Below, piece by piece: positions 26,046-63,226 of a DNA stretch of 64,000 nt. Numbering within the stretch: position 1 is the first letter of the stretch; each line of letters opens with the position of its first letter. A program made the position numbers and the translations under genes. The notes beneath the pieces are model-generated. The model ran no database searches, was not told the origin of the DNA, and was given only the letters and a program-made list of their open reading frames with translations. Source of the DNA: Malachius bipustulatus (lineage: Eukaryota; Arthropoda; Insecta; Coleoptera; Melyridae); NCBI GenBank assembly GCA_910589415.1, contig OU342636.1, positions 43,477,735 to 43,541,734 on the forward strand, in the 5' to 3' direction.

Positions 26046-26050
26046 ACTAT

Positions 26051-26986
26051 ACAGGGTGTCCCATTTTAATGTCCCACCCCGGATTATTTTTGTCAGTGAT
26101 CTTGAATCAAAAATTGTTTGGTACAAAAGTTGTACAACTTGAAGGGAGACATTCGATGGCACTAATACTTTTGACCTTGGGTGCAAGGTTCAAGGTCATT
26201 CAAGGTCAACTTTGTTTTTTAAAATGGAACTTCCTATTTTTGACATCGGCAATCGATTGCGCGTGAAAAATATGAGACTTTTGTCTTAAAGTTTTTTTCT
26301 GAAAACGCAAATTTTGCCTTCAAAATTGAAAATTTTAAAATTTTTGAATTTTCAACTCGAGAATAGTGAGGTTTAGAAGAGAACCACAAGTTAGATTTTT
26401 CATCAAGAATTGTTTAATTATTCCTTTGGTACAAGCAGCTCAAAATTAACAATTTTTCATCAAGAAAAGTTTAATTATTCCTTTGGTACAAGCAGCTCAA
26501 ATTTTGAAATTTTCAATTTTAACGTTTGGAAAAAATGCAATAATGCAAATTTCGTTGCATCGATAAGTGCATCGAAAAATTTCAAGAAAATTCGTGACGG
26601 TTTCTTGCGCAAATCCAAGCACTTTTGTTTCTTACAGATTTTCTTAGAAAGCTACCATTCTCGAGTTAAAAATTCATAAAGCTTAAAAATTTTTAAATTT
26701 GGCAGCTGCATAAGTCGATAAAATTTGCGTTTTGAGAAAAAAAGTTTCGGACAAAAGTCTCATATTTTTTCACGCGCAATCGATTTCCGATGTCAAAAAT
26801 AGAAAGTTCTATTTAAAAAAACAAAGTTGACCTTGAATGACCTTGAACCTTCTACCCAAGGTCAAAAGTATTAATGCCATCGAATGTCCCCCTCCAAGTT
26901 GTACAACTTTTGTACCAAACAATTTTTGATTCAAGGTCACTGACAAAAATAATCCGGGGTGGGACATTAAAATGGGACACCTGTAT
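26051..26986. mobile_element. Foldback element with CAGGGTGTCC termini
   Basis: The left end ACAGGGTGTCCCATTTTAAT and the right end are reverse complements, and the arms extend about 350-400 bases (for example TTGTACAACTTGAAGG near 26132). TA lies outside both ends. The loop contains a tandem duplication of about 58 bases (26397-26454 and 26455-26510). Non-coding. Confidence 0.88.
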
Positions 26987-26989
26987 ATA

Positions 26990-33078: not shown

Positions 33079-34295
33079 AGGGCAGTCCGATAAGTACTTA
33101 GCCTCACCGCCCGATGGCGCCACTATCGCAAGAGAAATTTACTATCGTGTAGTACATTCTCGTAGACGGCTACTGTCAAAATTTCAGCCGAATCGGACCC
33201 GTAGTTTTGTTTTCACCGCGTGTGGAAGGGGCGTGTGCACCGATTTTTCCGCGGAAATGGAAAAAGAGCAATATCGGTCGTTGATTCGATTCTGGTTTTG
33301 GAAGGGAAATCGCAGCGAAATCAAAGAACGCTTGGATGCTGTGTACGGTGTCTCTTCTCCTTCGATGGCAACCGTCAAAAATTGGTTTAACGAATTTCAG
33401 CGTGGTCGCATGTCGGTTTTTGATGAGCCACGCCCAGGTGCCCCTACGGAGGATAACTTGAAAAAAAATCATGACCGTCGATTGAAGGTACGCGAGATAG
33501 CTGAGACAGTAGGCATCTCAAAAGACCGCGTGGGTCATGTCCTGCATGAAATTTTGGGCATGAGAAAGCTGTCGGCGCGATGGATGCCGCGTTTGCTCAC
33601 TCCGGACGACAAGCGCAATCGTGTGACCACTGCAGACCACTGTTTGACGCTCTTTAAACGCAATCCGAAGGAGTTTCTGCGTCGTTTCGTGACCGTCGAC
33701 GAAAAATGGATTCATTGGTACACGCCAGAGACCAAGGAACAGTCGAAACAGTGAACTTCACCCGGCGAACGTGCTCCGAAGAAGGCGAAGATTGTCCTAT
33801 CGGCCGGAAAGATGATGGCCACCGTTTTCTGGAATTCACAAGGTGTGATCTACAATATGGACTACCCGGAGAAGGGAAAAACGATCACAGGGCTGTACTA
33901 CGCCAAATTATTGGGCCGATTCGACGACAAATTGCAGAAAAAACGGCCCCATTTGGCGAAGAAAAACGTGCCTTCCACCATGACAACGCACCGGCTCACA
34001 CCTCCGTCCTCGCCACGGCCAAATTGGTCGAATTGGGCTAGGAACTGCTGCCCCATACTCCGTATTCCCCAGATTTGGCCCCGTGCGACTTCTTTTTATT
34101 TCCAAACTTGAAAAAGCCACTTGGCGGGCAGAAATTTGAGTCGAATGGGGAGGTCATCGCCGCCACGGAGGCCTACTTTGCAGACCTCGAGAAAACGTAT
34201 TCGTGCTAAAAGGAGACTACGTTGTGAACTAAATCGTCACTTTTACAAAATTTTCGTTTTTCTTTTGTAGGCTAAGTACTTATCGGGCCGCCCTC
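33079..34295 (+). mobile_element. Full-length mariner (DD34D) with inactivated transposase
   Basis: Inverted terminal repeats of about 26 bases, AGGGCAGTCCGATAAGTACT... at the left and its near-complement at the right, have TA outside. The transposase starts at 33257 (MEKEQYRSLIRFWFWKGN). It keeps a helix-turn-helix region and the three acidic blocks: VDEKW (first Asp), HHDNAPAH (second) and YSPDLAPCDFF (third), the mariner signature. TGG to TGA at about 33752 ends the first frame at residue 166. A frameshift follows, and a further TAG lies after KLVELG near 34038, so it is not active. Its closest relative in the window is the copy at 42381. Confidence 0.93.
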
Positions 34296-34745: not shown

Positions 34746-35544
34746 TTTTAACACATTCCCTGCCAAGCTAAAATCATAAAAATGTCCCTACAGGCCATGA
34801 CTGGCAGGTTATCAATCATGAAAAATCATTTTGAAATGTGTTTACTTTTTTTGAATCTGATTATCCACTTCTAAGTTATTTTCAAAAATGCCTAGCGGAC
34901 ACCGGTGTCCTCTACGGCGCTCAGAAATATTTTACGCCTTCAGGAGTCGTATACGCCACAGCGGACACAAAATATTTCTCTACCACGCCAGAGCGGTCAC
35001 GGCTCAGCGGACACGCTTGTTCTGGCGGACACTGCATATTGTAAAGGATGTTATCAAAAGAAAATAAAAATGAAATAACTAAAAACAAAGTCAGAAAAGT
35101 GACCACGTATTGCATGGATTGTCCAATGCAACCTAGGTTTTGCCTGGATTGTTTTAAATCTTACCATAAGATTGTGTAGGCTTACATAATGTATTAAGTT
35201 TGAATTAATTGATTATTTTATTTATTTATTTTTTCTTATAAAATAAAGTTTTTTTTCGTTGTCAATCATAATAATGCTATGAAAAAAGTACCTGAACTAC
35301 CCATCTAAGGAACTATTTGAAAATTTGAATAAGTGATGTGGGCAGTAAACTATATTATCATTCATAAAAGAGTGAATTGCAGGTCAATGAGTATAAAGCA
35401 CATAAAGTGCAATTACTAGCCTGTTAGATGGGGTCGAAGAATTCCTGTATCGCCCTAACAGTTGTCATGATGGCAGTGCCCGAAACTCCAACTAGAGAGT
35501 TTGCTTCCGCATCCAACAGCAGAGCCTTCCAGAGTACCAGAACA

Positions 35545-35588
35545 AGCACAGACACGTGTTTCGTTCTACTGGAACTCATCAGTGTGCT
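35545..35588 (-). ncRNA. Hammerhead ribozyme (left arm)
   Basis: Reverse-complement twin of the right-arm motif with the same stems and core. Because both arms carry one, transcripts from either strand contain one active-sense ribozyme and one antisense copy. Confidence 0.92.
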
Positions 35589-35744
35589 GCATCTGGAGTA
35601 TCCGGAGGATGCCGTCGGATGAATGGAAGTTGGCCCCTCTTAAGGCAATTTCTTAGGTTGGCTTAACTTCTAGTTGGCCCCTGTTAGGCTTAAGAGGGGC
35701 CAACTTCCATTCATCCGACAGCATCCTCCGGATACTCCAGATGC

Positions 35745-35788
35745 AGCACACTGATGAGTTCCAGTAGAACGAAACACGTGTCTGTGCT
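35745..35788 (+). ncRNA. Hammerhead ribozyme (right arm)
   Basis: Stem I is AGCACA at 35745-35750 pairing with TGTGCT at 35783-35788. Core box 1 is the canonical CTGATGA. Stem II is GTTC/GAAC with loop CAGTA. Core box 2 is GAAA. It is followed by the self-complementary CACGTG that would form a minimal stem III, and cleavage site GTC ends at 35782. All conserved core positions are present. Very short, palindromic stem III is known from hammerheads of Penelope-like elements and animal satellites, which can act as dimers. Confidence 0.93.
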
Positions 35789-36309
35789 TGTTCTAGTACT
35801 CTGGAAGGCTCTGCTGTTGGATGCGGAAGCAAACTCTCTAGTTGGAGTTTCGGGCACTGCCATCATGACAACTGTTAGGTCGATAGAGGAATTCTCCTAC
35901 CCCATCTAACAGGCTAGTAATTGCACTTTATGTGCTTTATACTCATTGACCTGCAATTCACTCTTTTATGAATTAATCGTTGAGTATACTTGCCTTCTAT
36001 TTTCTTCTAGATTATCATTATTACGTGTCCGCCACGGCGGGTAGATTCCAGTGTTAGTTATCACCTGAGCTCAGCGCCAAAGCGGACATCTATAGCGGAC
36101 ACACGTATAAAATCTAATGGGAGGGGGGAATTCAGAAACCATGGGTGGCGAGAGATGCGGACACGTTCTCCAATACTTGTAATTTTAGCATTTGCTGTTA
36201 TGTTATAATATCAAAAAGCATCGGGCGGACACCGGTGTCCTCTCTGGCGTAGTACGGCCTTATAACAGCGGACACCGGTGTCCGCCATGGCAGCGAATGT
36301 GTTAAAGAA

Positions 36310-37191: not shown

Positions 37192-40100
37192 ATGCCAGCG
37201 GATTTTGAGAAAGCAATTGAAGAAACTGGTTATGGCAAATTTAACATCATGCTGCTAATTGTTTTCGTTCCATCTGTATGGGCATCTATTTTTGAAAGTA
37301 CGACTATGTCGTATGTGTTCTCGGCTGCTCAATGCGATTTAGACCTTACTTTAGGGAACAAGGGACTTCTAAACGCTATCACGTATGCGGGTAAAGTCAT
37401 TAACCATTATTCCGTCATTAATTTCGACAAATTGATTCTATTTTAACAGGAATGATAATTAGTGCCGTGTTATGGGGTTTCATGGCTGACGCATTCGGAA
37501 GACGTAAGCTAATACTTATTGGATTCTTAATGGGCGGGATTTTCGTATTTATATCAGCGTTGTCACAGAGTTTCACAGCTTTAATGGTAACAAAGTTTAT
37601 GGGTGGACTTATGTAAGTATGCTTTCGATTCTAATGCTCCAAAGAAAAGGATTCAAGACTCTCTGCCCTACTCTGCATAGGTCTTAAGACCTTATTACTA
37701 ATTATACATTTTATAGTGTTAATGGCCCATATTCAGCCATGAATTCCTACATCGCGGAATTCCATGCAGCTAAGCACAGAGCTAGAATGCTGTTTAGTAT
37801 CGGGATCATTCTTTGTAGTGTCGACTTTGTATTACCTCTTCTGGCTTGGGGCGTTTTACCGCAGAAATGGGAGGTGACTTTTTTTAATGGATATATTGGT
37901 AATATACTGTCTAGATTCGGTTGTCTACAATGTTTATTTATTCAAAACACATAAAATTAAATAACTTTTCATTAAGATTCACACATGAGTAATGGTAGTT
38001 GAAATTCTTAATTACTTAATATTGGTTATTCATGAAAAAAATCGTAATTGATTCCGGGCTGTTGTGCCGTGTTCCATGCAGATTTTCTCCGAACGTTTCG
38101 TCTACAGATGCGGTAGACATCATCAACTGTTACGTGTGCGAAAGCGATGCTTCCACTCCTCGTGTTAACCGATCGCTGATTTCGTGGACAAGATCACATA
38201 CGAATCGATTGTCGCCAAGCTAACATATCACTGCTAAACAAAAAAATGAATATGACTTAATGGGAGCCGAAAAATTTTCGTCTTCTCCTGATGTTCCCCG
38301 CACAGTAATAAATCTATCAGACCATCAGTTGACTGCCGAGGAAACAACCGTCTTGGCCAAAGGGGAAACGTTGAAATCACATCTTCCAGCCTGCTAGTTA
38401 AGGAGATTCGTCGCGAATGCTCAAGAATCTTACAGCGAGCCAAGCCGCCAAAAAACAACATATATGAAAGAGCTGCATTCAGGATTCTCAACGCTTACAA
38501 AATCATCATTATTCTTTCCGCAGACAAGAAAAATGCTATCGCTATATTGAATGTCAGATACTACGAGGAGAAAATCAAAAACAACTTGACCACTCAAACA
38601 TTCAAAAAACTTTCTAGAGATCCTACGAATTGCATCCTCCGAAAGTTGGTTGAAACTTCCACTATTCCCGGTGAAGACAAACGGCAGATTTGCACTGAAG
38701 CAAAGATACGAGTAAATAAACCTAACGAGCTTCTTTGCCCAATTGTCAGTGCCATTGGTTCTTCGACATATTCTCTGGGCAAATATCTAACCAACCTTGT
38801 GGTGACTAGGAGACTTGGGTCACTTTATAAAAAAACTTTAATCATTAACCCTTTATTCCAGTGACATTCTTGTTGGTTTTGATGTCGTTTCCTTCTTCAC
38901 CATGGTGCCCATCGACGAGACACTTCAACGCATTCAGCGCATCTTTACTCGGGAAATAACCGCTCTCTTCTACCATGTACTCACCACAACCTATTTTCAG
39001 TGGAATGGTGACTTCTATTAACAAAGGGATGGAGTTGCTATGGGCAGTCCCCTGAGTCCTGATGTTGCCAACTTCTACATGGAATTATCTAATTGACATA
39101 AACTCCGACATCAACAAACCGCTAAGTTTGTTGGTACCGCTAGGTAGATGACACCTTCGTCATTTGGCAGCATTGGAAAAAATTTCTTATAACCATATCA
39201 ACAGTATTCACTACCGCATTCAATTCCAGATGGAAATAGAACAGGAAGGAAGACTACCGTTTATTGATGTCCTCGTTGACACGAATGAAAATGGCACCTT
39301 GGGGCACAGGATCTACCGAAAACCAACACACACAAATCGGTATTTACATGAAAACTCTAACCATCATCCAGGCCAAAAAAAGAGCAGTAATAACAACCCT
39401 GGTGAATCGTGCATTCAGAAATTGCGAGACACAACATCTCGAAGAAGAGCTAGCCCACCTAGATAATGGTCTGCAGGGCTAATGGCTACAAGGCTCAAGA
39501 AATCAGGAGAGTCTTACGACCCAGAGACCAATATCCCACGACACCCAACAAACAACCAAGAAGAGTTTTGGGAGCTGCATTTCTCCCTTACATCAAGAAT
39601 GTCACCGATCGAATCGGTAAACTCCTGCAGCGCCACGACGTCAAAAACATCTTAAAATCTAAACAGGTTCACAGCATTTTCAATTCAGCTAAAGACTCCA
39701 TCGATCCACTTTCTTCCGCTGATGATACACGTAACCCCTGATGATGTCTACCGCATCTGTAGACGATACGTTCGGAACGAATCTTCATGGACCACGGCAC
39801 AACAGCCCGGAATCACTTACGATTTCAATAGAAGCAGGCCGTGAAAGCCTACACATATCAAAATCGACTTTCCTAAAATAACTTTGAGGTAGGTACTTAG
39901 GGGATAACTTCCAAGTACCTACCCTTAATTAGTGGAAGCACGAGATGAGGGATTGTTTAAAGTTATGACCTTTATTGACCTGTTTCTGTTTAAGTATAGG
40001 TACCAAATATGTTACTTTTTTCAGAGTTGCATTCATGGAATTTTTTCCTTTTAATATGCAGCATACCAGCATTTTCAAGTGCGATACTGTTCATATTTTT

Positions 40101-43100
40101 GCCCGAGAGTCCTAAATTCTTGATGACGGCTGGTAAAAATGAAGAAGCGATTAAGGTTTTCAAGATTGTTTACCACTTAAATACAGGGAAGCCTAAAGAC
40201 ACATTTCCAGTAGGAGAGGTTTTACTATAGTAAAATGACAGTAAATCGTTCAAACTTGATATGTTTCAGATTAAAGAACTACTAGATGAAGTAAACCATA
40301 AAGATGGAAACGGAAATGAACCCCAGAAAATAAACTCGAGAGTAAAAGATTTTACGAATGGGCTATTACAAACTAAACAACTTTGCTTTCCTCCTTATAT
40401 TTCAAAAATATTATTATGTTGCTTAATGCATTTTTTAGGTTTATTAAGGTGACTGAATTAATTTTTTATTTTGCCAGAATTACTACCTCATATTGAGGTT
40501 GTTACTGAAAAACACGCGTGCCAAATAAGGTTTTTATAGCAGAATGCGTGTTTTAAATGTTTCTAAGCAAATATGAACAAGCTTTATTAGTAATAACGCA
40601 CAATGTTAAAAGATTAATACTTAAATTAACAAAAAAATCTTAGCTTTTATCGTAGTTTTTGATCTTGGGAGGAGCGGCCACTCGAGTCGCCAGTTTGAAT
40701 GACACATTTGAAAAAAAAACCTTTTTTAATAGCTTATACGACCCTACCTGTATATCTTAATTTTTCACGTACTATGGAAACATTTTCAAAATGGAAGTTC
40801 TAATTTTTTAGTAGTAGATTCTAAACCATGTCGCCGAATTTCATATTTTTAATCACCTTGTACAAAAACTTCAATCACACAATTGGATAGTACTTGACAA
40901 GTAAAGACAGAGACACGTAAGACGTTTTTCTCTAGCTTATTGAGTCGTTTTCGCTGTGAACTGCTTAGAAAATGAAAAATAGCGATTTTCACTTGTTCAC
41001 ATCTTCTAAAATTGTCAATTATTTAAACTCCAAAACTATACATCATCATCATCATCAACATCAACATCATTCCATTTAAAAAGATATAAGTGTCCACATG
41101 GGACATCCTGTATAATTGTCCAAAATAATTTTTGATTGTAAATAGGTATTGCGACTTGGTATCATATTTGTTTTAATTTTTTTATCCGGCAAGGCTTAGG
41201 CTACACAAACCGAGGTGTTCGTGGCGCTCCACCCTGTACATTGTTGTCAGAAGCATTAAATTTCATTTACAAAACTTGGTTTTTCCTCGTATTAATTATT
41301 GAATTAATAGTGATGAGGTAGGAAAGTATCGATATACGTTACAAAAGCCATCGCTATACGTTACAAAAGCCATCGCCAAACGTCAGTCTATTTTTTGTTG
41401 CTCACTCTTTAACATATTATACCAATTTTGATTATTTATTTTTTCGTTTTTAGTTTTAATTCGTTGAGATTATGGATGCCTCAAATTTTTCAAGCTATTG
41501 TTGATTACGAGCACTTCAATAATGGTACCAGTGCAAGTCTTTGCACAATGCTGGAACCGATAAAGTCTGCCGAGTCTAATGATTCTAGTTCAGAATGTTT
41601 TGTGGTATTGAGTTACTATTTTCATTTACAAGTGCGTCAAAAAATTTTCATAAAACGTTTTAGAATATGGACAACGCAGCAGTGTACCAAAATTCAATGA
41701 CAATTGGAGCAATACAAATAATCATATATATTATAACAGTTTTTATGGTAAATCCTCTGGGTAAAAAGAGACTACTTGGCAAGTAACATTTGCTTTTTAT
41801 TTACATTTTTTATCTATTTTTATGTTATAGTGGGTTCAAGTGTTATTTCCGGATGTTGTTCACTGGCAATTTATTTTTCCAATAGCATGGTATCTACTTT
41901 AGCTCTGTCTGCTCTTTCCATTTCTTGTTCTGCGATCAGCTTAGATATATTGCTAACTGTTGTAGTCGACTTATTTCCAACATTCTTAAGGTAAGTAGGT
42001 ACGTGCTTCAATTTTTAATAAAATAATAGCTATTTATTGTGATACACGTTCAATAAGATTTTGCTCTATCACTATATCAGACCAAATTATCAACTGATAT
42101 TTAACCGTCCTTTTTATCCTAAAATTTGCCATCATTCACAGTCATTATTAGTCGATGTCCATGTCAGACTAAAGAATTAACATATCTAAAGATATACCTT
42201 GGCGTATTATAGGACGTGGCCACTCGCGTGAAAAAATGGAAGCAATAACATTAGACTCTTACCCTCAAAGGGGACTCTAAGACCGTTCTTAGATACATAG
42301 TTCGGTGTAAAAATTTCAATGGTCTGTAGACAGATTCAAAAAATTTTGAAAAAAATCTGAAATTTTCGCGCTACTACGAGGCGACCGTCAAAAATTGGTT
42401 TAACGAATTTCAAAGTGGTCGCACGTCGGTTTTTGATGAGCCACGCCCAGGTGCCCCGAAAACGGCTACTACGGAGGATAACGTGACAAAAATCCATGAC
42501 CCCGTATTGACAGACCGCCGATTGAAGGTACGCGAGATAGCTGAGGCAGTAGGCATCTCAAAAGACCGCGTGGGTCATGTCCTGCATGAAATTTTGGGCA
42601 TGAGAAAGCTGTCGGCGCGATGGGTGCCGCGTTTGCTCAGTCTGGACAACAAGCGCAACCGTGAGACCACTTCAGAGCAGTGTTTGACGCTGTTTAAGCG
42701 CAATCCGAAGGAGTTTCTGCGTCGTTTCGTGACCGTCGATGAAACATGGATCCACTGGTACACGCCAGAGACCAAGGAACAGTCGAAACAGTGGACTTCA
42801 CATGGCGAACGTGCTCCGAAGAAGGCGAAAACTGTCTTATCTGCCGGAAAGGTAATGGCCACCGTTTTCTGGGATTCACAAGGTGTGATCTACATCGACT
42901 ACCTGGAGAAGGGCAAAACGATCACTGGGCTGTACTATGCCGAATTATTGGGCCGATTCAACGGCGAATTGCAGAAAAAACGGCCCCATTTGGCGAAGAA
43001 AAAAGTGCTTTCCCACCATGACAACGCACCGGCTCACACATCCGCCCTCGCCATGGCCAAATTGGTCGAATTGGGCTACAATATGCTGCCCCGTCCACCG

Positions 43101-44612
43101 TATTCCCCAGATTTGGCCCCATGCGACTTCTATTTATTTCCAAACTTGAAAAAGCCACTCGGCGGGCAGAAATTTGAGTCGAATGAGGAGGTGATCGCCG
43201 CCACGGAGGCCTACTTTGCAGACCTCGAGAAAAAGTATTTTTCAGACGGGTTAAAGAGAAGTTGGAGCATCGCTGGGTCAAGTGTATCGAGCTGAAAGGA
43301 GACTACGTTGAGAAATAAATCGCCACTTTTCCAAAATTTTCGTTTTTCTTTTGTTAGGCTAAGTACTTATCGGACCGCCCTCGGATATAAGATCTGATTC
43401 TTGAAGCGCATAGTGGCAGGAGATTTATCTGAGTTCGAGTTTTTTGTGTTACCATAGTTCCAAAACGGATAAGTAAATGTTTTCAGAAAGCGATTTTTCT
43501 ATGTTCTTGACATAAGTAGCTTGACTAGTTTCAATCTCACTCTTACACAACCTTCTCAGACAAACAAAGCACTTATTGTCCTGTCCACATCCCGATCCTT
43601 ATGCTTTCTATGAGCATTATGTTTCTGCTTAATCAATGTAAAAAAATCCTGTTGAACCAATGGCGGGTAGTTGGACTTGAAAGCATCCTTCGCTGTATAA
43701 ACCTACTGATGATGACGGGTATAAAACATCATTAAAACTACTGTCGGCGCAAGTCTGAAATCATAAAACAGCCCCCCCACCTCATCCCCCCCCTCCCCCC
43801 CCCCGAAATATCGCGGTCTTTCCTAAACGTAACGTAATCATAAATTTGATTATTTTTATTGAACCTCTACTTCTTAATTGTTGAATGTTCTTCTTCGTTT
43901 TAGGTTTTAGGTTCTCGATAATAAAAGTATTATTTTTTTTTAATTTTTATGAAAATGAAACGTTTCGGGATAAAGTTACAAATTCCCTGTTAGACATCTC
44001 TCATCAGTGAGCCAAAATTTGGTTACTAGTGTATAATAATACTTCGTCGAAATCAGCAATTAATATTGATGGAAAACTGTAACAAATAGCCAGAACGTGA
44101 AAAAATTTGTTGTCTGGGACTGGATCTAAAACTGCAAACAATCAAGATCTTTCATTTTATAGTTTTACAGATTCAGTCTCAAAGATCATTTTTTAAAGTC
44201 TACCCAGACTGGGTTTTCATTTGCTCACACGATGGATATTTGCAATGCACATATTATCAATACAAAAATTATATTATCACTTACTAAATAGTATAATAAA
44301 TATAAGTTTTTTCAGGACAATGACAGTATCTTTAATGATAATGTGTGGGCGAATAGGAGCAATGATAGGAAATGTGGTTTTTCCCTATTTGCTAAACGCA
44401 GGTTGCGCTCCACCATTTGCAACTATTGCAGTATCGATTAGCAGTAAGATCTTTTTTTTATTTTTAATACACTACCTACAGAGTATATATTTAATTTTAT
44501 TAGACTATTTTTTATTTCTATCAATAATTGATTATCGTGATAATTTTTTTTTTTAGGCTGTGCAGTGTTGACTTATTTCTTGCCAAACACCGATCTAAAA
44601 GCACTAGAATAA
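37192..44612 (+). CDS. SV2-like major facilitator superfamily transporter (505 aa)
   Basis: A membrane transporter of the synaptic vesicle glycoprotein 2-like branch of the MFS; the substrate is unknown. Ten exons join with all phases consistent: 37192-37390, 37450-37612, 37717-37898, 40025-40209, 40270-40448, 41454-41604, 41664-41778, 41831-41990, 44316-44443 and 44557-44612 (stop TAA at 44610). The protein opens with FEKAIEETGYGKFN, the standard SV2-like start. It has the MFS motif A loop GFMADAFGRRK (residues 76-86), LPESPKFLM after the sixth membrane segment, SLRLWMPQIF opening the second half, and about twelve hydrophobic segments. Length is normal for the family. The ATG at 37192 directly follows an acceptor, so a 5' exon must exist and could add a few residues. 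The seventh exon uses a GC donor (G|GCAAGT). The fourth exon's donor could alternatively be the GTTTTA at 40219, which also keeps frame. Intron 3 holds a Penelope-like element and intron 8 a mariner, yet the reading frame is intact. AATAAA overlaps the stop (44611). Confidence 0.93.
38041..39830 (+). pseudogene. Degraded Penelope-like retroelement in transporter intron 3
   Basis: The frames give a Penelope-type reverse transcriptase: CPIVSAIGSSTYSLGKYLT, then LVGFDVVSFFTMVP (motif A Asp kept), DGVAMGSPLSP (motif B), VDDTFVIW (motif C, preceded by a stop), LPFIDVLVDTNENGTLGH and YRKPTHTNRYLH. The C-terminal LPYIKNVTDRIGKLL block ends near 39740. No GIY-YIG endonuclease follows. Stops and frameshifts are numerous. 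The ends, 38041-38126 and 39741-39826, are inverted repeats containing CCGGGCTGTTGTGCCGTG and a hammerhead-like motif. Confidence 0.92.
39738..39790 (+). ncRNA. Degenerate hammerhead-like motif at the Penelope-like element end
   Basis: CTGATGA is followed by a 6-bp stem (GTCTAC/GTAGAC) and then GATA in place of GAAA. The inverted copy at the other end (38070-38116, minus strand) has GAAA but TTGATGA. No matching stem I is visible, so neither is expected to be active. The order of elements mirrors a hammerhead and links this element to the ribozyme repeats. Confidence 0.55.
40740..41110. repeat. Relic of a CAGGGTG foldback family
   Basis: Contains CACCTTGTACAAAAACTTC and a GCGATTTTCACTTGTTCA segment in the order seen in the right arms of the elements at 18806 and 45395, but much diverged. 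It lies in transporter intron 5. A short (CAT)n run is at 41041-41056. Confidence 0.5.
42381..43382 (+). mobile_element. 5'-truncated mariner in transporter intron 8
   Basis: Same family as 33079-34295, but lacking the 5' terminal repeat and about 45 N-terminal codons. It starts at the GACCGTCAAAAATTGG position. An open frame of 270 codons from 42483 carries VDETWIHW, HHDNAPAH and YSPDLAPCDFY, so all three catalytic acids are present. A frameshift after KKYFSDG near 43240 alters the last residues. The 3' terminal repeat (GGCTAAGTACTTATCGGACC) is present. Lacking one terminus, it is immobile. The longer intact frame compared with copy 1 shows that the two decayed independently. Confidence 0.92.
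43390..44310. other. Transporter intron 8, remainder
   Basis: Unassigned apart from a C-rich low-complexity run at 43775-43805. Confidence 0.5.
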
Positions 44613-45960: not shown

Positions 45961-46470
45961 AATTGTTTTTCTGTTTACATCGTTCTATTCAGCGGAAAAA
46001 CTACTACTAGTTCGCTACTTTGCATCGTATTTGTATTTGTAAATTTCTATTTATAAACCGCATTTGCAGATACAAAACTAACGAAGTTAGCAATTATGCC
46101 GACTTAACTTTGAAGACCCTATAGGTATATACAAAATACAAAATTAAAATTTTACCGGAGCCGCATTAATCCGTGAAGTTTAATTCAGGGCATTGCTCCT
46201 CAATAAATAAAGAGATTTCAATGGCAGACAACACACGCACCCATCCAGAACCTTTCGAAGGTGCAGACGGACCCTTTCGGTCTGTTTATGGTCTCATCAG
46301 TGCACCACATCGAGATCTGATCCAGACACTACGATGCCGTCCACCATCAAAAGATATACCCCTTGTGTTCATGGAGCTCCACGGAACTCTGTGAATTACA
46401 TAGTCGTTCAATAAAACAACAATCAGTAGGTCAATGAGTATATATTTTTTCTTTCAAAAATAGGAATATC

Positions 46471-46510
46471 TTGTCGACCGGTTTCGGGTGTTAACCCATC
46501 TTCAGGACAA
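46471..46510 (-). ncRNA. Hammerhead-like ribozyme motif (left arm)
   Basis: Exact inverse of the right-arm motif, on the minus strand. Confidence 0.74.
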
Positions 46511-47137
46511 TTGTCAGTTTACAAGAGTCGCGGTCCACACATAGAAGGTATACAATTATTCATGTTTAAAAATATGTAGGCCTAGGCCAGATGTAAAAAT
46601 GTAGAAACACGTAGTCATAAGATCAGAAATTCTCTAAGAAACTTCCAAAGAACAATCACACATATAAATAAAATCAAAAATTAAAAATATGTCATTACAA
46701 ACTTGTTTAAAACCCTTCGCCCGAGTGGAAGGGTGGCGTTAATTGACTTAAGGGGGTTAAAATTGTAATCTAATTAAATATTCGTAAATTTTAAGACAAG
46801 TAAAACGGTGGACCGACGTGAAGCGTCGATCCCCGGTGAATGAATCATTAAAATTATACTAATTAAAATTTACGAATATTTAATTAGATTACAATTTTAA
46901 CCCCCTCAAGTCAATTAACGCCACCCTTCCACTCGGGAAGGGTTTTAAACAAGTTTGTAATGACATATTTTTAATTTTTGATTTTATTTATATGTGTGAT
47001 TGTTCTTTGGAAGTGTCTTAGAGAATTTCTGATCTTATGACCACGTGTTCCTACATTTTTACATCTGGCCTAGGCCTATTTTTAAACATGAATTGTATAC
47101 CTTCTATGTGTGGACCGCGACTCTTGTAAACTGACAA

Positions 47138-47177
47138 TTGTCCTGAAGATGGGTTAACACCCGAAACCGGTCGACAA
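47138..47177 (+). ncRNA. Hammerhead-like ribozyme motif (right arm)
   Basis: Stem I is TTGTC/GACAA. Box 1 is CTGAAGA. Stem II is GGGT/ACCC with loop TAAC. Box 2 is GAAA, then CCGG and cleavage triplet GTC. One extra T lies between box 1 and stem II, and the CCGG stem III could form only between two molecules. Activity is therefore less certain than for the other motifs. Confidence 0.75.
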
Positions 47178-47739
47178 GATATTCCTATTTTTGAAAGAAA
47201 AAATATATACTCATTGGCCTACTGATTGTTGTTTTATTGAATTTTTGAGTTTTTTGATGGCCAATTTTATGGACATAGTCGTTCGCCATCTAACAATGGA
47301 GGCAGGAACTACCAGTAATGAATGCGAGCTTGCAACCATCGTAGACTGCGGCCCGCTGACATCAGGCTTCAACCTATAGTCGTTCAGTACTAACAATCGC
47401 CGGCAGATGTCATTCCATTCGCCCAATTAGTAAACACAAAAATAAAAATTTTAACGGAGCCGCATTCGTGAAAATTAATTATTGATTTTCAGTCATTCAT
47501 TTAATTCATTTAATTCAGTTTCTGGATGAGTTACGTGTGTTGTCTGCCATTGAGCTCTTTATTTATTGAGGAGAAAAATGCCCTGAATTAAATTTCACTG
47601 AAGAAAATTATTTGAAACTTGAGTTAATGCAATAAAATTTGCATTATTTTTAATCAATAAGCCAGTGGCGTGGGTAGGAAAAGGGTAAAAATGGCTAAAA
47701 TTCTACAATCGCTTATACGCACATTTTTGAAGGAACCCA

Positions 47740-52875: not shown

Positions 52876-55800
52876 TCAAAGCCATGGAACATATTTCATT
52901 TCCCATTTTTGAGAAATACTTTGGTTACATTCTTCCAATATTAACCCTTCAGAACCCTCTTTCGATGGTGATAGGTCTAAACATTTATTATTGGTCAAAT
53001 GTCGCAACTCAGAGGTCTGCAAATAAAAATTAAGCACTAATAAGAAATAATTACATTACCTAATATAACAATACATTGAATAAGAATGTATATACCTTGT
53101 TATTATAAGCCCATTTCTGTCTAGTATGTCCACTGCAAGCCATAATCCTAACTTTAGCAAGTCCAATAACATTCTTTTCTGGAGCATCCAAGCAAACAGA
53201 ATCATCAGTCATGATAAACCCATCCGACGTCATAACAAACATTTCTATCGTGAAATGATCAGGGAGGCATTTTTCTAAAACAGCAATTCCAGTTGGTTGG
53301 TTAGATATACTCTTTTTTTCAGGCTTGATCAAACACATATCCAAATGCATATTCCTAATATGTCCAAAAAACCTGTCTTTTTTAGGGAAAAAGTGTTCAG
53401 GCCATATATTATCCAAGTACCATTCAAAGCTTTTACAATCTAAACGTTTTCTTAGCTCTAATCTTGATGTGATATTTTGTTCATGTTTAACAGAATTAGG
53501 CACTTCATTGAATTTAAAATAAAATTTTCCCCAATCGTCCATCCAAACGAGAGCCACTCTCGCTAAATTTGCATATAGTGTTTTGTTTATGCCACCTGGA
53601 AATGAATAGGGTGAAGATTTTCTAAAAATATGACCTACATGTGAACATGGAACTATTTTGATCTGCCCACCGCATTGCCATACTCTGAAAAAGAAAAATG
53701 ATGAAAACTCAATATCAACATAAAATTGGTGTAATTAGGTACCTAAAAGACATTTCCAAGTTTTCACCTCCCCAAATTGTCATTCCTTCATCATATCCAC
53801 CAATCTCGAAAAAATATTCTCTATCAATGGCGAAAAGTCCACCAGCCATCGTCGGTGAAGAAAATGGTGTGGCAATGTCAGTTTTTCTCAGTTTTAGCTG
53901 CGAGCTTCCAAGGGTGAACCATCTAAATTGCAAATTCCAATTAAAAGCACCCCAATGTAACTCAAAACTCTTTACGTAAGCAAAAGTCTCATCATTAATT
54001 ATATCTATTACGGGACAAACAACAGTTTTCCTATTACTTTTTATCACAGACAGTAGACTCACTAACCACCCATTTGTACATTCGCAATGGGCATCTAGGA
54101 ACGTTAAAACATCACCTTTAGCCTTTCTGGCTCCAAGCATTCGAGCTTTTATCAAGCCTATCCGACTTGAACTTCTTATTATCACTGTGTTTATTGGTAA
54201 CGTCTTTATATACTCATCCAAAGCTCTTCCGAGAAAATCTGAAAAATATTACCGTACATAAAATTTTTACTTTTAATAAGAGGGATTATTAGATACATTT
54301 CTAGAATCCTATATAAAATTACAATAAATACTTATGTTTACAGTGTCACATGACTTGAGGTTCGCAAATACCTGTGTATTTTAACCAGTGTATTAATGAG
54401 AAACGTTAAACTTTACATTACAGAGAGTATTAATAAATAGGGTGTGTTTTAAAAATTGTACAGACTGCTTTCTTGATATACTTGGAGTTATGGGAAATTA
54501 CTTATAATATTAGTTATACATGTTTTGAAACACCATGTATTGAATACCTACATCTATATAATTACCTATTAGATTTAGATTTATCGTGAGTCGGCCATTG
54601 TGACACCTCCACTGCGACCGAAGGTCTATTGTGGCTCATATCTAGTGGTACATTAACCCCATCAGGTCAGCTTCTTCGAGAAAGCTGACCAACTTGACTA
54701 TTGTTAATGTATCCAGGTCCTTCGGTGTGAGAAATCGGGACACTCACATAGGTCGAGTTTTGTTGCTTCGTCATCCAACACAGGCGACATTCAGCACTGA
54801 TCGCTAAGCCTATCCTGTGCAGATGATGGCTCAGCTTACAGTGCCCAATTGTATAGGCCTATTAGAGCTTTCAGTTCTTTCCATGTTAAGCTCCAATAGT
54901 TCTTTGGTCCTTTTCTTCGAAGTACCCTTTATAAAGGCATTTGAATGGTCCAATCTTGGTAAGTTTTGTCAGTGCTGGAGGATCATACCCTCTCAGACTA
55001 GTTTCTTATTGTTGCTTTGGCAACATCTGGTGATATGCCAAACTCTGGTTCTGGTCCAGTAAACTCGACTTCGGCACCTTTCCTGTCCAGAGGGTCGGCA
55101 ATATCCATATCCAGCATGGAACGGAATCCAGACCAGAATTACTTCGTTGCTGTTTACTAGAGCATTCAAGGTTTGTTGACAGTTCCAGACCAACTTGGAC
55201 TTGCGGTGTCTGGTGCTAAGGGTTTTTAGAGCGGCTTGGCTGTTGAAAATATATGAAAATATTTTTATTGATCTGCGTTGACAGTGCATCTTTTACTGCA
55301 ATTGCGCACAGAGCTCAATGGCATAGCCATCGGTGAACCAACTGAAATTTGGTCTCTCAACTGACACGTCTCTTCTCGGAAGTTGTTTTCGTAATTATTG
55401 TTGTCTTAGGCATTATGTCCGAGGGCATACCCAGTAAGTAGACTGTGACTTTCTTTGTCATCCAGTATCATGGTTCGCTTCAAGTTAAAAGCCTTTGGCA
55501 AGCATCTTGCCATCTGTTTCATCCTATATGTAGTCCATTTGCTCTCTCTCTCTCTCTCTCCAAATAAATATGGAGAGGTGGTAAGTCCAGTAGGATCTCC
55601 ATAGCCACCGACGGTGTGGTGTTAATGATATCACAAATCGCCAGACAAACTTGTCTCTGTAGGCTAGAGAGCTTTAATTTGACAAAAAGATGAACGACAT
55701 ATCGTAAAACGATACGTCATTCATTGATTTCATGTTGTGAGTCAGGGGTGGAAATTGTAGACACGTGTTTCGTCCTAATTGGGACTCTTCAGTACAATGT

Positions 55801-58800
55801 ATCTTGCTAACACACAGCACAATCTTAGTCACTTAATAGTGAGCAAAATGATAAAAATAAATAAAAATAAAATAGCACGGTGGGTTCGGCTTTCGCCATA
55901 GGATGCAACCCCAGGCAGCTAAAACGCATGCCAACAACTGAGTGCAGTGCCTCCCGATGTGCGTATAAAGGTAGGATAGGCCTACTTCCAAAGTTTAACA
56001 AAAAGATGAACGACATATCGTAAAACGATACGTCATTCATTGATTTCATGTTGTGAGTCAGGGGTGGAAATTGTAGACACGTGTTTCGTCCTAATTGGGA
56101 CTCTTCAGTACAATGTATCTTGCTAACACACAGCACAATCTTAGTCACTTAATAGTGAGCAAAATGATAAAAATAAATAAAAATAAAATAGCACGGTGGG
56201 TTCGGCTTTCGCCATAGGATGCAACCCCAGGCAGCTAAAACGCATGCCAACAACTGAGTGCAGTGCCTCCCGATGTGCGTATAAAGGTAGGATAGGCCTA
56301 CTTCCAAAGTTTAACAAAAAGATGAACGACATATCGTAAAACGATACGTCATTCATTGATTTCATGTTGTGAGTCAGGGGTGGAAATTGTAGACACGTGT
56401 TTCGTCCTAATTGGGACTCTTCAGTACAATGTATCTTGCTAACACACAGCACAATCTTAGTCACTTAATAGTGAGCAAAATGATAAAAATAAATAAAAAT
56501 AAAATAGCACGGTGGGTTCGGCTTTCGCCATAGGATGCAACCCCAGGCAGCTAAAACGCATGCCAACAACTGAGTGCAGTGCCTCCCGATGTGCGTATAA
56601 AGGTAGGATAGGCCTACTTCCAAAGTTTAACAAAAAGATGAACGACATATCGTAAAACGATACGTCATTCATTGATTTCATGTTGTGAGTCAGGGGTGGA
56701 AATTGTAGACACGTGTTTCGTCCTAATTGGGACTCTTCAGTACAATGTATCTTGCTAACACACAGCACAATCTTAGTCACTTAATAGTGAGCAAAATGAT
56801 AAAAATAAATAAAAATAAAATAGCACGGTGGGTTCGGCTTTCGCCATAGGATGCAACCCCAGGCAGCTAAAACGCATGCCAACAACTGAGTGCAGTGCCT
56901 CCCGATGTGCGTATAAAGGTAGGATAGGCCTACTTCCAAAGTTTAACAAAAAGATGAACGACATATCGTAAAACGATACGTCATTCATTGATTTCATGTT
57001 GTGAGTCAGGGGTGGAAATTGTAGACACGTGTTTCGTCCTAATTGGGACTCTTCAGTACAATGTATCTTGCTAACACACAGCACAATCTTAGTCACTTAA
57101 TAGTGAGCAAAATGATAAAAATAAATAAAAATAAAATAGCACGGTGGGTTCGGCTTTCGCCATAGGATGCAACCCCAGGCAGCTAAAACGCATGCCAACA
57201 ACTGAGTGCAGTGCCTCCCGATGTGCGTATAAAGGTAGGATAGGCCTACTTCCAAAGTTTAACAAAAAGATGAACGACATATCGTAAAACGATACGTCAT
57301 TCATTGATTTCATGTTGTGAGTCAGGGGTGGAAATTGTAGACACGTGTTTCGTCCTAATTGGGACTCTTCAGTACAATGTATCTTGCTAACACACAGCAC
57401 AATCTTAGTCACTTAATAGTGAGCAAAATGATAAAAATAAATAAAAATAAAATAGCACGGTGGGTTCGGCTTTCGCCATAGGATGCAACCCCAGGCAGCT
57501 AAAACGCATGCCAACAACTGAGTGCAGTGCCTCCCGATGTGCGTATAATATACCCCTGACTCACAACATGAAATCAATGAATGACGTATCGTTTTACGAT
57601 ATGTCGTTCATCTTTTTGTTAAACTTTGGAAGTAGGCCTATCCTACCTTTATACGCACATCGGGAGGCACTGCACTCAGTTGTTGGCATGCGTTTTAGCT
57701 GCCTGGGGTTGCATCCTATGGCGAAAGCCGAACCCACCGTGCTATTTTATTTTTATTTATTTTTATCATTTTGCTCACTATTAAGTGACTAAGATTGTGC
57801 TGTGTGTTAGCAAGATACATTGTACTGAAGAGTCCCAATTAGGACGAAACACGTGTCTACAATTTCCACCCCTGACTCACAACATGAAATCAATGAATGA
57901 CGTATCGTTTTACGATATGTCGTTCATCTTTTTGTTAAACTTTGGAAGTAGGCCTATCCTACCTTTATACGCACATCGGGAGGCACTGCACTCAGTTGTT
58001 GGCATGCGTTTTAGCTGCCTGGGGTTGCATCCTATGGCGAAAGCCGAACCCACCGTGCTATTTTATTTTTATTTATTTTTATCATTTTGCTCACTATTAA
58101 GTGACTAAGATTGTGCTGTGTGTTAGCAAGATACATTGTACTGAAGAGTCCCAATTAGGACGAAACACGTGTCTACAATTTCCACCCCTGACTCACAACA
58201 TGAAATCAATGAATGACGTATCGTTTTACGATATGTCGTTCATCTTTTTGTTAAACTTTGGAAGTAGGCCTATCCTACCTTTATACGCACATCGGGAGGC
58301 ACTGCACTCAGTTGTTGGCATGCGTTTTAGCTGCCTGGGGTTGCATCCTATGGCGAAAGCCGAACCCACCGTGCTATTTTATTTTTATTTATTTTTAGCT
58401 TTAATTTGGCCATGGCCTGCTGGCCTTTTGACCACCAAGCGGTATTGATACACGCAATCATAGGTCTGATGACCTTTACGTAAAGCCAGTATTGTATTTC
58501 TTTGGGTGCGATTCCCCATGTTTTGCCACATATTCTTTTACAAGTCCAAAACGAGAGTTTGACTCTGTGTATAACCTTTTCCAGATAGGAGTTCCAAGTA
58601 AGCTTTTTATCCAGGATTACATCTAGGTACCTGGCTTCCTCTGCAAATGGAATGGTTTCTCCCAGTAGAGCTTGGGGCGTTAAACCGTCCAACCTTCTCT
58701 GTCTGGAAAATCGTTATATAACAGTTTTGCGAGGGTTGACGGACATGTGTTCCCTGTCGCAGCACTGATAGTTACCTAGAGTACTCTCTGAAGGACCCTA

Positions 58801-60890
58801 GAAATTGTCGCTACTGATCTTCGTTTCATCAGAATGAACAAGTCATCAGCATCTGCCTAAACGTCGACACTCCATAGTGAGAGAACGGTCAGAAGATCAT
58901 CGACGAGAAGGGACCAGAGCAAAGGGGAGAGGACTCCTCTTTGCGGGCACCCCCTCGCGGACCTAAAGTCGATATTTTTCCCTCCCGTTGAGGTCGTTAT
59001 ATTTCTGTTTCCAAGCATATTGCGGAGCCAGACACTTACGACTGATGGGATTCCTCTTGAGACAACTGCCTTATAGAGAGATTCTGCGGTAGTGCGTTTT
59101 TGAACGCTCCTTCTATTTCGAGGAAGCTAGCCATCGCAGTTTCTTTTTTTGTCAAGAGACTTGGTGATCTTGCTTACAAGGTTGTTGAGAGCGAGGTCGG
59201 TTGACTTTTCAGACTGGTAGGCACCCCCTTTCAGACTTTTTAGTAAAAAAGAGGTTAGGCTAATGGGTCTCAGCGACTTTGGGTAAGGTTCTGTATTCGT
59301 TTAACATTTGGTTTTATAAAGGCACATTAAATTAAGTCTCAGATTTACTTTGGTTATTAACATTTCTGTAACATTTTCATGCCACGGCTGCCACGAGTAA
59401 CCAAATTGTTTACTTTTCAACCTAGAGTTGATAACTTCTTTAGAAACGGTCCCAAAAATCTACCAGTTAATTTAATGGGATTTTTTTGTGTACCCAATAT
59501 TAACCAATATTAACTAATTATCCAATAAGTTTTTTTTCCTATTACCTACGTATAAAACTCTCTAAATATTCTAAAATCGTGCTAAAATACGTTACTGAAT
59601 GAGAAAGTTTTTTTCGTATATTTTTACCTCTTTGGCTAGCATCGTCCACAAGAATAATTTCTTGTAGCAGTTCTTTTGGAGATCTGTTTATTACGCTCCA
59701 AATTGTTCTCAGCAAAGTTGACCAAGCTTCATTGTGAAAGACAATTATAACTGTGGTTTTTGGATATGTTAGATAATCGGAAAACAGTTGAGGACATCTA
59801 AAAATTAAGAAATCATTTTAAATTCCTGATATTTACCAAATTTAGTATACCGGGTATCATGCAAATTTTAATTCCCCCAATATTATCTCCCCGATGCATT
59901 TTAGAGCAAAAATTGTATTATACTTTTTTGAAGGCCCTTTTATGAATGCAAAACACAAATACTTCATCCAGCGAATTGTGAGATATTTTTAAAAAGGTTT
60001 TTTAAAATTTGTAAAATAAAAATGTTGTTTAAGAAAACGTTTTTCAAAATATCTCCTAATTCGCTCAGTGAAAAATGAAAATTAGTCGTATTTGGCACGT
60101 GAATCCAATATACCTTCAAAAAAGTCTGATCCAATTTTGCTCTAAAATGAATCGGGGGAAGAATATTTTGTAGGTATTATTAGGGGGTAAGTATTAAAAC
60201 TTTCACGAGATTTCTCTGGACGGTTTAACGATGCAAACACTCCACCCCGTATACTAAAATTTAAATAATTTATGATGTAGTTAAAATTCTCATGAACTAA
60301 ACAGGTTGTTGCCTATTTCTAAACAGTTTTTCTCCTGAATATAGGTTGTTATAGATAAAAGTACTTACGTTAAATAAAAGATTGGCTATGATTTACAAAT
60401 TTACCTTTTTCTTCTAACGTCGGGTAAAGTCCTATTCAAAGGAATACTGTCACTAGCCAATAAATTAAAACGGTTTATCTGAAATAATTGTTTCATTTTA
60501 ACAAAATCTTTTGGTGCTGTAACCACAGGATTTCCATTTTTTCCAGCTTGTGGTATAGGATCGAAATAATTTGTATTAATCATGTCATATGTGGCATTAG
60601 GAATTTTATCCACAGGGTTTCCGATATAATGACCCACAACTACTTTAATTCCTCGATCTATGAAATCGTTTTCATTTTTTTTTCTGAAAATAAATAATAA
60701 TTTCAATGGATATAAATTTATTACCTTATTCCTTAGTAATACTATTATAAAATTTATCTAACCTGAAGATGTGTTTGGGATGAATTTTATTTGTTTGGTT
60801 GTAATAACTTTTAACTAAAATAATTGTAAACAAAACAATTGCAACCACTAGAAGAAATAAGCGTTTGTATGATCTTAAAATCAGCCTCAT
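52876..60890 (-). CDS. Polypeptide N-acetylgalactosaminyltransferase (600 aa)
   Basis: A Golgi type II membrane enzyme that starts mucin-type O-glycosylation by moving GalNAc from UDP-GalNAc to Ser/Thr. Six minus-strand exons, in gene order 60763-60890, 60405-60683, 59628-59797, 53743-54238, 53096-53684 and 52876-53016, join without any frame conflict. Residues 11-27 are a single membrane anchor. The GT-A catalytic domain has [13 protein letters not shown] (from 155), EIILVDDAS, the metal-binding DAHCE (DxH at 241-243), and the family motif [11 protein letters not shown] ending at 358. The C-terminal ricin-type lectin domain (about 465-600) has CLD at 522-524 and 566-568 and QKW at 547-549 and 590-592; its first repeat has CLI instead of CLD. 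The length is normal and all key residues are present, so the gene looks functional. The start [10 protein letters not shown] was chosen because TTTCAG lies just upstream and reads as a 5' UTR intron acceptor. Intron 3 (5.4 kb) contains a LINE and the ribozyme satellite. The exact paralogue is not assigned. Confidence 0.97.
55541..55562. repeat. (CT)n microsatellite
   Basis: CTCTCTCT run within the decayed LINE. Confidence 0.85.
55754..55798 (-). ncRNA. Hammerhead ribozyme, minus-strand satellite units (six copies)
   Basis: Minus-strand reading: stem I ATTGTA pairs with TACAAT after the cleavage site. Box 1 is CTGAAGA (fits CUGANGA). Stem II is GTCC/GGAC with loop CAATTA. Box 2 is GAAA. The palindromic CACGTG forms a minimal stem III, and the cleavage triplet is GTC. 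The total is 45 bases. Identical copies lie at 56070-56114, 56386-56430, 56702-56746, 57018-57062 and 57334-57378. All are in the sense of the transferase pre-mRNA. The core closely resembles published hammerheads of schistosome, newt and cave-cricket satellites. Confidence 0.95.
57819..57863 (+). ncRNA. Hammerhead ribozyme, plus-strand satellite units (two copies)
   Basis: Same 45-base motif on the + strand, antisense to the transferase gene. The second copy is at 58135-58179. Cleavage is expected directly after GTC, before TACAAT. Confidence 0.95.
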
Positions 60891-62245: not shown

Positions 62246-63226
62246 CCCAAACAGCACAAAGTAGTCCTATGGACGTCCAATGGACATCCCTCTATGTACC
62301 AACGGACGTCCATAGGACGTCCGTTTTTGTCCTATGGACGTCCATGGGGCGTCCACTCAGTGTCCATTTGTCACAACTTTGGACATACGCAGGATGTCCG
62401 TTACCGGACTTCCATAGGATGTCCGTTATCGGACGTCCATAGGGAGTCCGTTATCGGATGTCCATAGAGAGTCCGTTATCGGATGTCCACAAAGCATTTG
62501 CTGATAAATATCTTAGTGAGGAACAAAAGACAGAAAATATTCGATAAGTCTTGAAATTTAGAGTGTTGAAAAATCCAATAAATGTGGTGATAGGTATAGG
62601 GTATATACGGTAATTTTCTATTTTGAAAACAACGTTGATAACGGCTAAAGATACAGGAAAACGACTAGGTACTTACCTACTTACGTGTTTCTATATCATT
62701 AAGTTTTAAGTAAAATCTGGTAATTTTCATTGAAAACTTGTTAATTATATTAGTTTATGATAATATTGATAAACTTAATGAAAATATTCGTTTTTGGATT
62801 TTTCACAAACTCTAAAAATTAAAGATTCATCGAATTTCTTTCTTTTGTTTACTGTATAATGCAGATGTCTTCAATCTTCATCTTCACGCTAACAGTCTTG
62901 AGTTTGATGGGAATGGCGGAACTCTTTCCTTGGGACGAATTAATGTATAATGTAGGAATGTGGATTGTATGATAGTAGAAGAATGGAAGATGGGGTGGTT
63001 AGCGCGTGCGTGCGCACTTGTGCTGTTATTCTCTTCCTGTCTGCGACAGCACGTCATGCGCAATAGTCAAAAATAACTCGATGGACGTCCAATGGACGTA
63101 CTTTTGTGGACGTACATAGGAAGTCCGTGCGGAGAAGTCCGTAGGACGTCCATTTATTGTCCATGGACCAATGGACGTATAATGGATACTCAACGGACGT
63201 CCATAGGACACTCGGTGCTATCTGGG
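62246..63226. mobile_element. DNA element with GGACGTCC subterminal repeats
   Basis: About 980 bases with imperfect inverted ends (CCCAAACAGCAC at the left, GTGCTATCTGGG at the right). Each end carries a cluster of GGACGTCC and TCCATAGGA-type units in both orientations (62268-62490 and 63080-63210), around a unique AT-rich centre without a coding frame. Clustered palindromic subterminal repeats are typical transposase-binding arrays of non-autonomous DNA transposons. The superfamily is not identified and no target duplication was recognised. Confidence 0.75.

Follow-up and report, generated by a model that had tools for sequence, protein, structure and literature searches.

The subject of this work is a tandem array of hammerhead ribozyme units, here called E1, which entered the genome of the beetle Malachius bipustulatus in a single event as two opposed multimers within one target-site duplication (TSD). 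The window analyzed is the whole stretch of 64,000 nucleotides from contig OU342636.1 (GenBank assembly GCA_910589415.1, positions 43,477,735 to 43,541,734, forward strand), and all coordinates are counted from its first letter. Arrival in one event is well supported by the duplication flush with both ends of the array, by the gap-free frame of the interrupted long interspersed nuclear element (LINE) once the array is taken out, and by the identity of the two inverted blocks.

The hammerhead array and its insertion site

Tandem Repeats Finder resolved a 316-bp period, with 5.9 copies at 55678-57548 and 2.7 inverted copies at 57552-58397. No mismatch separates the five full units of the left block, the sixth is identical as far as 57548, and the right block is the exact reverse complement of the left-block unit. 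The blocks are out of register, as the left one ends at unit position 287 and the right one begins at position 68. The filler between them forms, together with its neighboring bases, the pattern GTATA-A-TATAC, which may reflect template-assisted end joining; with three bases involved, chance is possible too. The unit has a GC content of 0.408, and stop-to-stop frames of ~107 aa recur in every copy, none in the array exceeding ~115 aa.

Searching Rfam yielded eight RF00163 matches in E1, of which the minus strand holds six and the plus strand two; each scores 53.5 bits against a gathering threshold of 34. Helices I (6 bp) and II (4 bp) are perfect, and helix III is very short. The core pattern matched the window 8 times and 100 dinucleotide shuffles not once. 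A strict structural scan, which combined the core with at least 4 pairs in stem II and at least 4 in helix I, returned 12 motifs (eight in E1 and two each in the elements E2 and E4 described below), against a mean of 0.01 over 200 shuffles, 2 of which contained one. A looser scan (14 rows) added two motifs, at 47598 (+) and 58849 (-), both with stems of 3 bp, which fail the strict scan and were dropped. The E1 monomer folds well (z = -3.83). In the best predicted fold of the circular monomer (-81.1 kcal/mol) the active hammerhead is not present, and forcing helices I and II with an open core is predicted to cost 6.1 kcal/mol. The RNA sense of each block follows from its hammerheads, minus on the left and plus on the right, so the RNA 5' ends meet at 57549-57551 inside the array, and the 3' ends face outward and touch the duplications.

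The duplication is an exact 12-bp repeat, AGCTTTAATTTG, although the first A of its right copy also matches the E1 unit and could belong to it. Boundary repeats of at least 12 bp arose by chance at a fraction of 0.00075 among 4000 random point pairs in the same window. Removal of E1 and one copy of the duplication leaves a minus-strand frame of 155 aa that runs through the joint, with 101 aa ahead of it and 54 beyond. A longer read-through of the LINE across the empty site, used as the query, retrieved 10 homologues at E<=1e-5; eight cross the joint, seven of these without a gap there, and two end short of it. The best insect matches, two proteins of the beetle Molorchus minor, cross the joint at 62% identity. 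Outside the joint the LINE is decayed and carries stops, and its RVT_1 match at 58860-59126 (minus) has an E value of 0.002, below the Pfam cut-off. A by-eye reading of 54996-55292 (minus) as the LINE RNase H was unsupported by Pfam. The only other LINE matches in the window, one of 46 bp to the far edge and three of 15-21 bp, do not amount to a further copy. Glycosyltransferase exons (PF00535) lie on both sides of the array, at 59545-59817 and 53718-54248, both on the minus strand. This suggests that the LINE and E1 are intronic, probably within one gene, which we read as GalNAc-transferase-like.

An initial annotation, made from the sequence alone, had already claimed a hammerhead with perfect stems I and II in each of eight units, a LINE frame that reads through once the array is removed, and one-event arrival including the inversion. 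The Rfam covariance check, the LINE homologues, and the flush duplication around identical inverted blocks bear these claims out. It had also described a flanking duplication of 11 bp; the duplication is real, but its length is 12 bp.

Further hammerhead elements in the window

E2 was found through comparison of the E1 unit with the window and a lowered Rfam threshold, as its two hammerheads fall 1.4 bits under the gathering threshold and are missed at the default setting. Its arms differ by 6 mismatches in 285 nt and stand in register about a 44-nt center, within a 9-bp duplication, ATTATCATT; boundary repeats of at least 9 bp occurred at 0.015 of random point pairs. E2 is a second type I hammerhead element, unrelated to E1. 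Sequence sharing between elements was judged against 100 shuffles per pair. The hammerhead core is common to E1 and E2 (score 42, against a shuffle maximum of 28), and E2 and E4 have a common 15-nt word near the 3' end, the score of 25 being above the 95% point (23) and below the shuffle maximum (27). The pairs E1-E4, E2-E3, and E3-E4 showed similarity below the shuffle 95% point.

E4 lies within a 12-bp duplication, ACATAGTCGTTC, and its arms, with 5 mismatches and 9 gap columns in 388, stand in register about a 68-nt center that holds a small hairpin. Rfam missed its minimal hammerheads even with the limit set at E<=10. This element is enclosed by a further inverted pair (46170-46253 and 47517-47601).

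E3 is, as judged from its sequence, of the Penelope-like element (PLE) type in its reverse transcriptase. A search with its broken frames gave 450 homologues at E<=1e-5, the strongest having an E value of 1.2e-94. The best 120 of the 450 include insect, spider, and lizard (Anolis) proteins with RVT_1, and the GIY-YIG domain (PF01541) was found in one of these 120. The consensus of the homologues shows, by eye, a GIY-YIG-like stretch after the motif DPLS, and the E3 frames end where the aligned homologues continue into it. Each inverted end of E3 appears by eye to hold a degenerate minimal hammerhead.

Beyond the initial annotation, the inversion in E1 has a fixed polarity that is common to the three further elements. 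E1, E2, E3, and E4 are all head-to-head, minus on the left and plus on the right, with RNA 3' ends outward (4/4, E3 by eye). If polarity were free, such uniformity would be expected 1 time in 16, E3 being the weakest of the four cases. This common layout suggests one copying mechanism for the four hammerhead elements. In E1, E2, and E4 the head-to-head pair lies inside a duplication (12, 9, and 12 bp, respectively); E3 is head-to-head without one. Among 11 inverted elements of the window that were tested, these same three have boundary repeats of at least 9 bp. The palindrome at 13341-14629 has an 11-bp word, but inside its own arms and not at the boundary, and the remaining seven, E3 included, have boundary repeats of 8 bp or less.

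Furthermore, the right blocks of E2 and E4 extend past the matching left arm at the RNA 3' end, by 37 and 31 nt. The last 8 RNA nucleotides contain TTTT at five of six outer ends (both ends of E1 and E4, and the left end of E2), against background fractions of 0.01-0.17 (P ~1.5e-5, post hoc). Since this pattern was noticed before it was tested, it is a lead rather than a test.

Hammerheads were also sought in sequence collections. In a viral collection, used as a control, at least 120 stretches carry the strict core; among the matches listed, 9 contain more than one hammerhead and 0 of 120 have hammerheads on both strands. By-eye inspection of 20 showed 16 whose closed helix III exceeds that of E1 in length; two of the loci appear to be one sequence. 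A genome contig collection gave 0 matches to the E1-type core. PLE relatives in viral contigs amounted to 19 pattern matches, none confirmed.

Apart from these elements, the window holds inverted or palindromic elements at 18804-19660, 26048-26987, 6157-6902, and 13341-14629, which are hammerhead-free in our scans and served as controls. The first three end in ACAGGGTG and look by eye like miniature inverted-repeat transposable elements (MITEs) or foldback elements. A mariner-type transposase region at 42330-43292 has a 321-aa open frame (PF01359, E 4.2e-25), and another at 33080-34153 was recognized by eye only. At 62264-62489, units of 25 and 33 bp with many GTCC/GGAC palindromes form short tandem arrays.

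Table 1. Coordinates of E1, its insertion site, and the other hammerhead elements in the window
Feature	Position	Strand	Description
E1, whole array	55682-58396		two inverted blocks of 316-bp units, 5.9 + 2.7 copies
E1, left block	55682-57548	- (RNA sense)	5.9 identical 316-bp units, six hammerheads; RNA 3' end at 55682
E1, right block	57552-58396	+ (RNA sense)	2.7 identical units, two hammerheads; RNA 3' end at 58396
E1, 5'-5' junction	57549-57551	none	3-bp filler TAT
E1, left TSD AGCTTTAATTTG	55670-55681	none	exact 12-bp repeat flush with array
E1, right TSD AGCTTTAATTTG	58397-58408	none	exact 12-bp repeat flush with array
E1, type I hammerhead copy 1 of 8	55754-55798	-	RF00163 53.5 bits, E 4e-11
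E1, other minus hammerheads	56070-56114, 56386-56430, 56702-56746, 57018-57062, 57334-57378	-	RF00163 53.5 bits, E 4e-11 each
E1, plus hammerheads	57819-57863, 58135-58179	+	RF00163 53.5 bits, E 4e-11 each
Interrupted LINE reverse transcriptase, upstream part	58409-59126	-	resumes beyond array from 55681 downward
E2, left target duplication ATTATCATT	35354-35362	none	9 bp; right copy 36011-36019
E2, element	35363-36010		inverted arms 35360-35644 (-) and 35689-35973 (+)
E2, hammerheads	35545-35588, 35745-35788	-, +	RF00163 32.6 bits, E 3.2e-4
E2, one-sided tail	35974-36010		37 nt past arm, 40 from duplication edge
E3, Penelope-like element remnant	38039-39825	+	broken reverse transcriptase reading frames ~38292-39738 (+)
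E3, inverted ends	38039-38137, 39727-39825	-, +	10 differences in 99 nt
E4, left target duplication ACATAGTCGTTC	46398-46409	none	12 bp; right copy 47273-47284
E4, element	46410-47272		inverted arms 46407-46794 and 46863-47241
E4, hammerheads	~46471-46510, ~47138-47177	-, +	minimal (PLE-type, no closed helix III); structural scan
E4, one-sided tail	47242-47272		31 nt past arm, 34 from duplication edge

Copying mechanism and competing explanations

The account that we favor, and consider somewhat probable, is that E1 is a retrozyme without long terminal repeats (LTRs) that PLE-type machinery placed here in a single insertion, in the form of two multi-lap cDNAs that were copied from circular or uncleaved multimeric RNA and then joined; both the enzyme and the template are ones that we infer. 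A Penelope-type endonuclease would make a staggered cut with 3' overhangs of ~12 nt, and from both target 3' ends, acting as primers, reverse transcription would begin at U-rich positions within the retrozyme RNA. Each cDNA would run several laps (5.9 and 2.7 units) on the template, the two cDNA 3' ends would be joined with the 3-bp filler, and gap filling would create the target duplication. Published work describes a purified PLE protein, PAc, that in vitro cuts the two strands of the target and extends each of them, its initiation being internal to the RNA and independent of homology (PMC11167929).

Neither outer end of E1 coincides with a hammerhead cut site; each lies past the nearest one, by 78 and 223 nt, and the left block runs through six such sites without interruption. 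Thus, cleaved linear monomers are an unlikely template. The full identity of the units leans toward one small circle, whereas the finding that PAc uses unprocessed RNA, the hammerhead being dispensable in vitro (PMC11167929), leans toward an uncleaved multimer. The more specific proposal, that retrozyme circles are copied by rolling-circle reverse transcription in two opposed runs, one per strand of the same Penelope-made staggered break, which would give a bidirectional multimer in one TSD, is put forward tentatively, as possible rather than probable.

Several observations weigh against the favored account. PAc was seen to start in an AC-rich stem loop and not in a U tract (PMC11167929), and the right end of E2 is without a T run. 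E1 has no short tail: on the unit, a distance of 146 or 170 nt separates its two RNA 3' ends, against the 30-40 nt of a PLE tail. E1 and E3 show similarity below the shuffle 95% point, with none beyond the shuffle range; no target duplication was found at E3, where boundary repeats reach at most 8 bp; and neither an intact PLE nor a PLE endonuclease was seen among the 14 reading frames scanned with Pfam. The 316-bp unit is seen at one locus only, as its comparison with the window found no second copy. In addition, 10 bp of ACATAGTCGTTC recur in the flank of E4, 101 bp downstream of the right copy. Finally, head-to-head copies would also be the product of a snap-back, in which one cDNA, or antisense RNA as proposed for PLEs of Adineta vaga, self-primes and copies back before the hairpin integrates, and self-priming on an antisense template is favored for PLEs (PMC3846280).

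This snap-back, which we judge rather unlikely for E1, suits the arms of E2 and E4, which are in register around short centers (44 and 68 nt, the latter with its small hairpin). However, in E1, whose blocks are out of register, the loop would have to measure 219 nt, or 219 plus multiples of 316. A snap-back would also make the right outer end an arbitrary stop, yet this end is flush on the duplication and follows a T run like the left one. Moreover, the PLE protein starts cDNA directly on both strands in vitro (PMC11167929).

A LINE-type endonuclease and reverse transcriptase, acting by ordinary twin priming in place of PLE machinery, is a still less probable source of the same geometry. Twin priming by L1 yields this 5'-5' arrangement, and the T runs at the element ends fit LINE-type priming. 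On one linear RNA, however, it produces complementary segments and not two overlapping multimers. LINEs stand beside PLEs as named candidate movers of animal retrozymes (PMC7229834), but the tails of E2 and E4 favor a PLE, and no TTTT/AA motif was seen by eye at the cut sites. We regard it as very improbable that E1 is an assembly artifact or a satellite grown in place by unequal exchange and then inverted, even though recent local amplification also yields identical units and inverted arrays are hard to assemble. Growth in place is rejected on the 12-bp duplication at the outer ends of the array and on the LINE frame that is continuous over the empty site; an inversion breakpoint would, besides, need to coincide exactly with the duplication. 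An artifactual palindrome would be expected in register, whereas E1 is out of register. Likewise, E2 and E4 are not read chimeras, as their arms differ at 6 of 285 and at 5 positions plus 9 gap columns of 388, respectively.

Relation to known systems

Animal retrozymes consist of type I hammerhead units in tandem; their TSDs, where found, exceed 4 bp, and multimeric cDNA from circles has been proposed for them (Cervera and de la Pena 2020, PMC7229834). E1 resembles these non-LTR retrozymes in its tandem unit of ~300 bp and low GC (41%): every complete unit carries a type I hammerhead, the unit length falls within 150-450 bp, GC is below 50%, and the duplication exceeds 4 bp. Together with the presence of E3 in the window, these features uphold the initial suggestion of a retrozyme-like, Penelope-connected element. 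Neither tandem type I arrays with TSDs nor the suspicion that PLEs move them is new (PMC7229834). E1 differs in having two opposed multimers in one 12-bp TSD, as inverted arrays are not described in the available text of that work. A bidirectional multimer within one TSD was not found in the literature searched, whose scope did not extend to subscription papers, and this is no proof of novelty.

As to the enzyme that moves animal retrozymes, the case for PLEs has been argued from shared hammerheads, tandem copies, and co-existence (PMC7229834); the insertion anatomy of E1 would tie a retrozyme to PLE-type integration. Consequently, the question of the enzyme becomes testable, since polarity, duplication length, and start sites can be counted across copies in any genome. 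E1 also offers a concrete route by which a satellite array may be full-grown from the outset, its several identical copies running in both directions. If two opposed rolling-circle runs did occur, head-to-head hammerhead satellites would be founded by transposition and not grown in place.

Plant LTR retrozymes share the hammerhead with E1, and a circular RNA life cycle is theirs, but theirs is a type III hammerhead accompanied by LTRs, a primer-binding site (PBS), a polypurine tract (PPT), and a 4-bp TSD (PMC7761336). E1 was rejected as an LTR retrozyme because the type I model fits best and the duplication is 12 bp rather than 4 bp; LTR features were not searched for. The W elements of Schistosoma are, like E1, satellite-like, some have type I hammerheads, and one presumptive TSD is given, whereas head-to-head insertion is not described in the accessible part of that report (PMC8490949).

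E1 is not itself a PLE. With 8.6 copies of a 316-bp unit, it has no frame longer than ~115 aa, too short for a reverse transcriptase plus GIY-YIG endonuclease, and it lacks similarity to E3 and a short tail, its hammerhead being canonical and not minimal. The likeness to PLEs is found in the manner of insertion. In A. vaga, inverted PLE copies are most often head-to-head, with an inverted pseudo-LTR (pLTR), and several insertions have TSDs of 8-10 bp, others none; a one-sided tail of 31 bp is also reported (PMC3846280). PLE tails of 30-40 bp correspond to the interval between two start sites of reverse transcription by PAc (PMC11167929). The one-sided tails of E2 and E4 resemble these, whereas E1 has start sites 146 or 170 nt apart instead, and the elements of the window resemble PLEs in their head-to-head copies, in TSDs of 9-12 bp, in the hammerhead, and in tandem copies.

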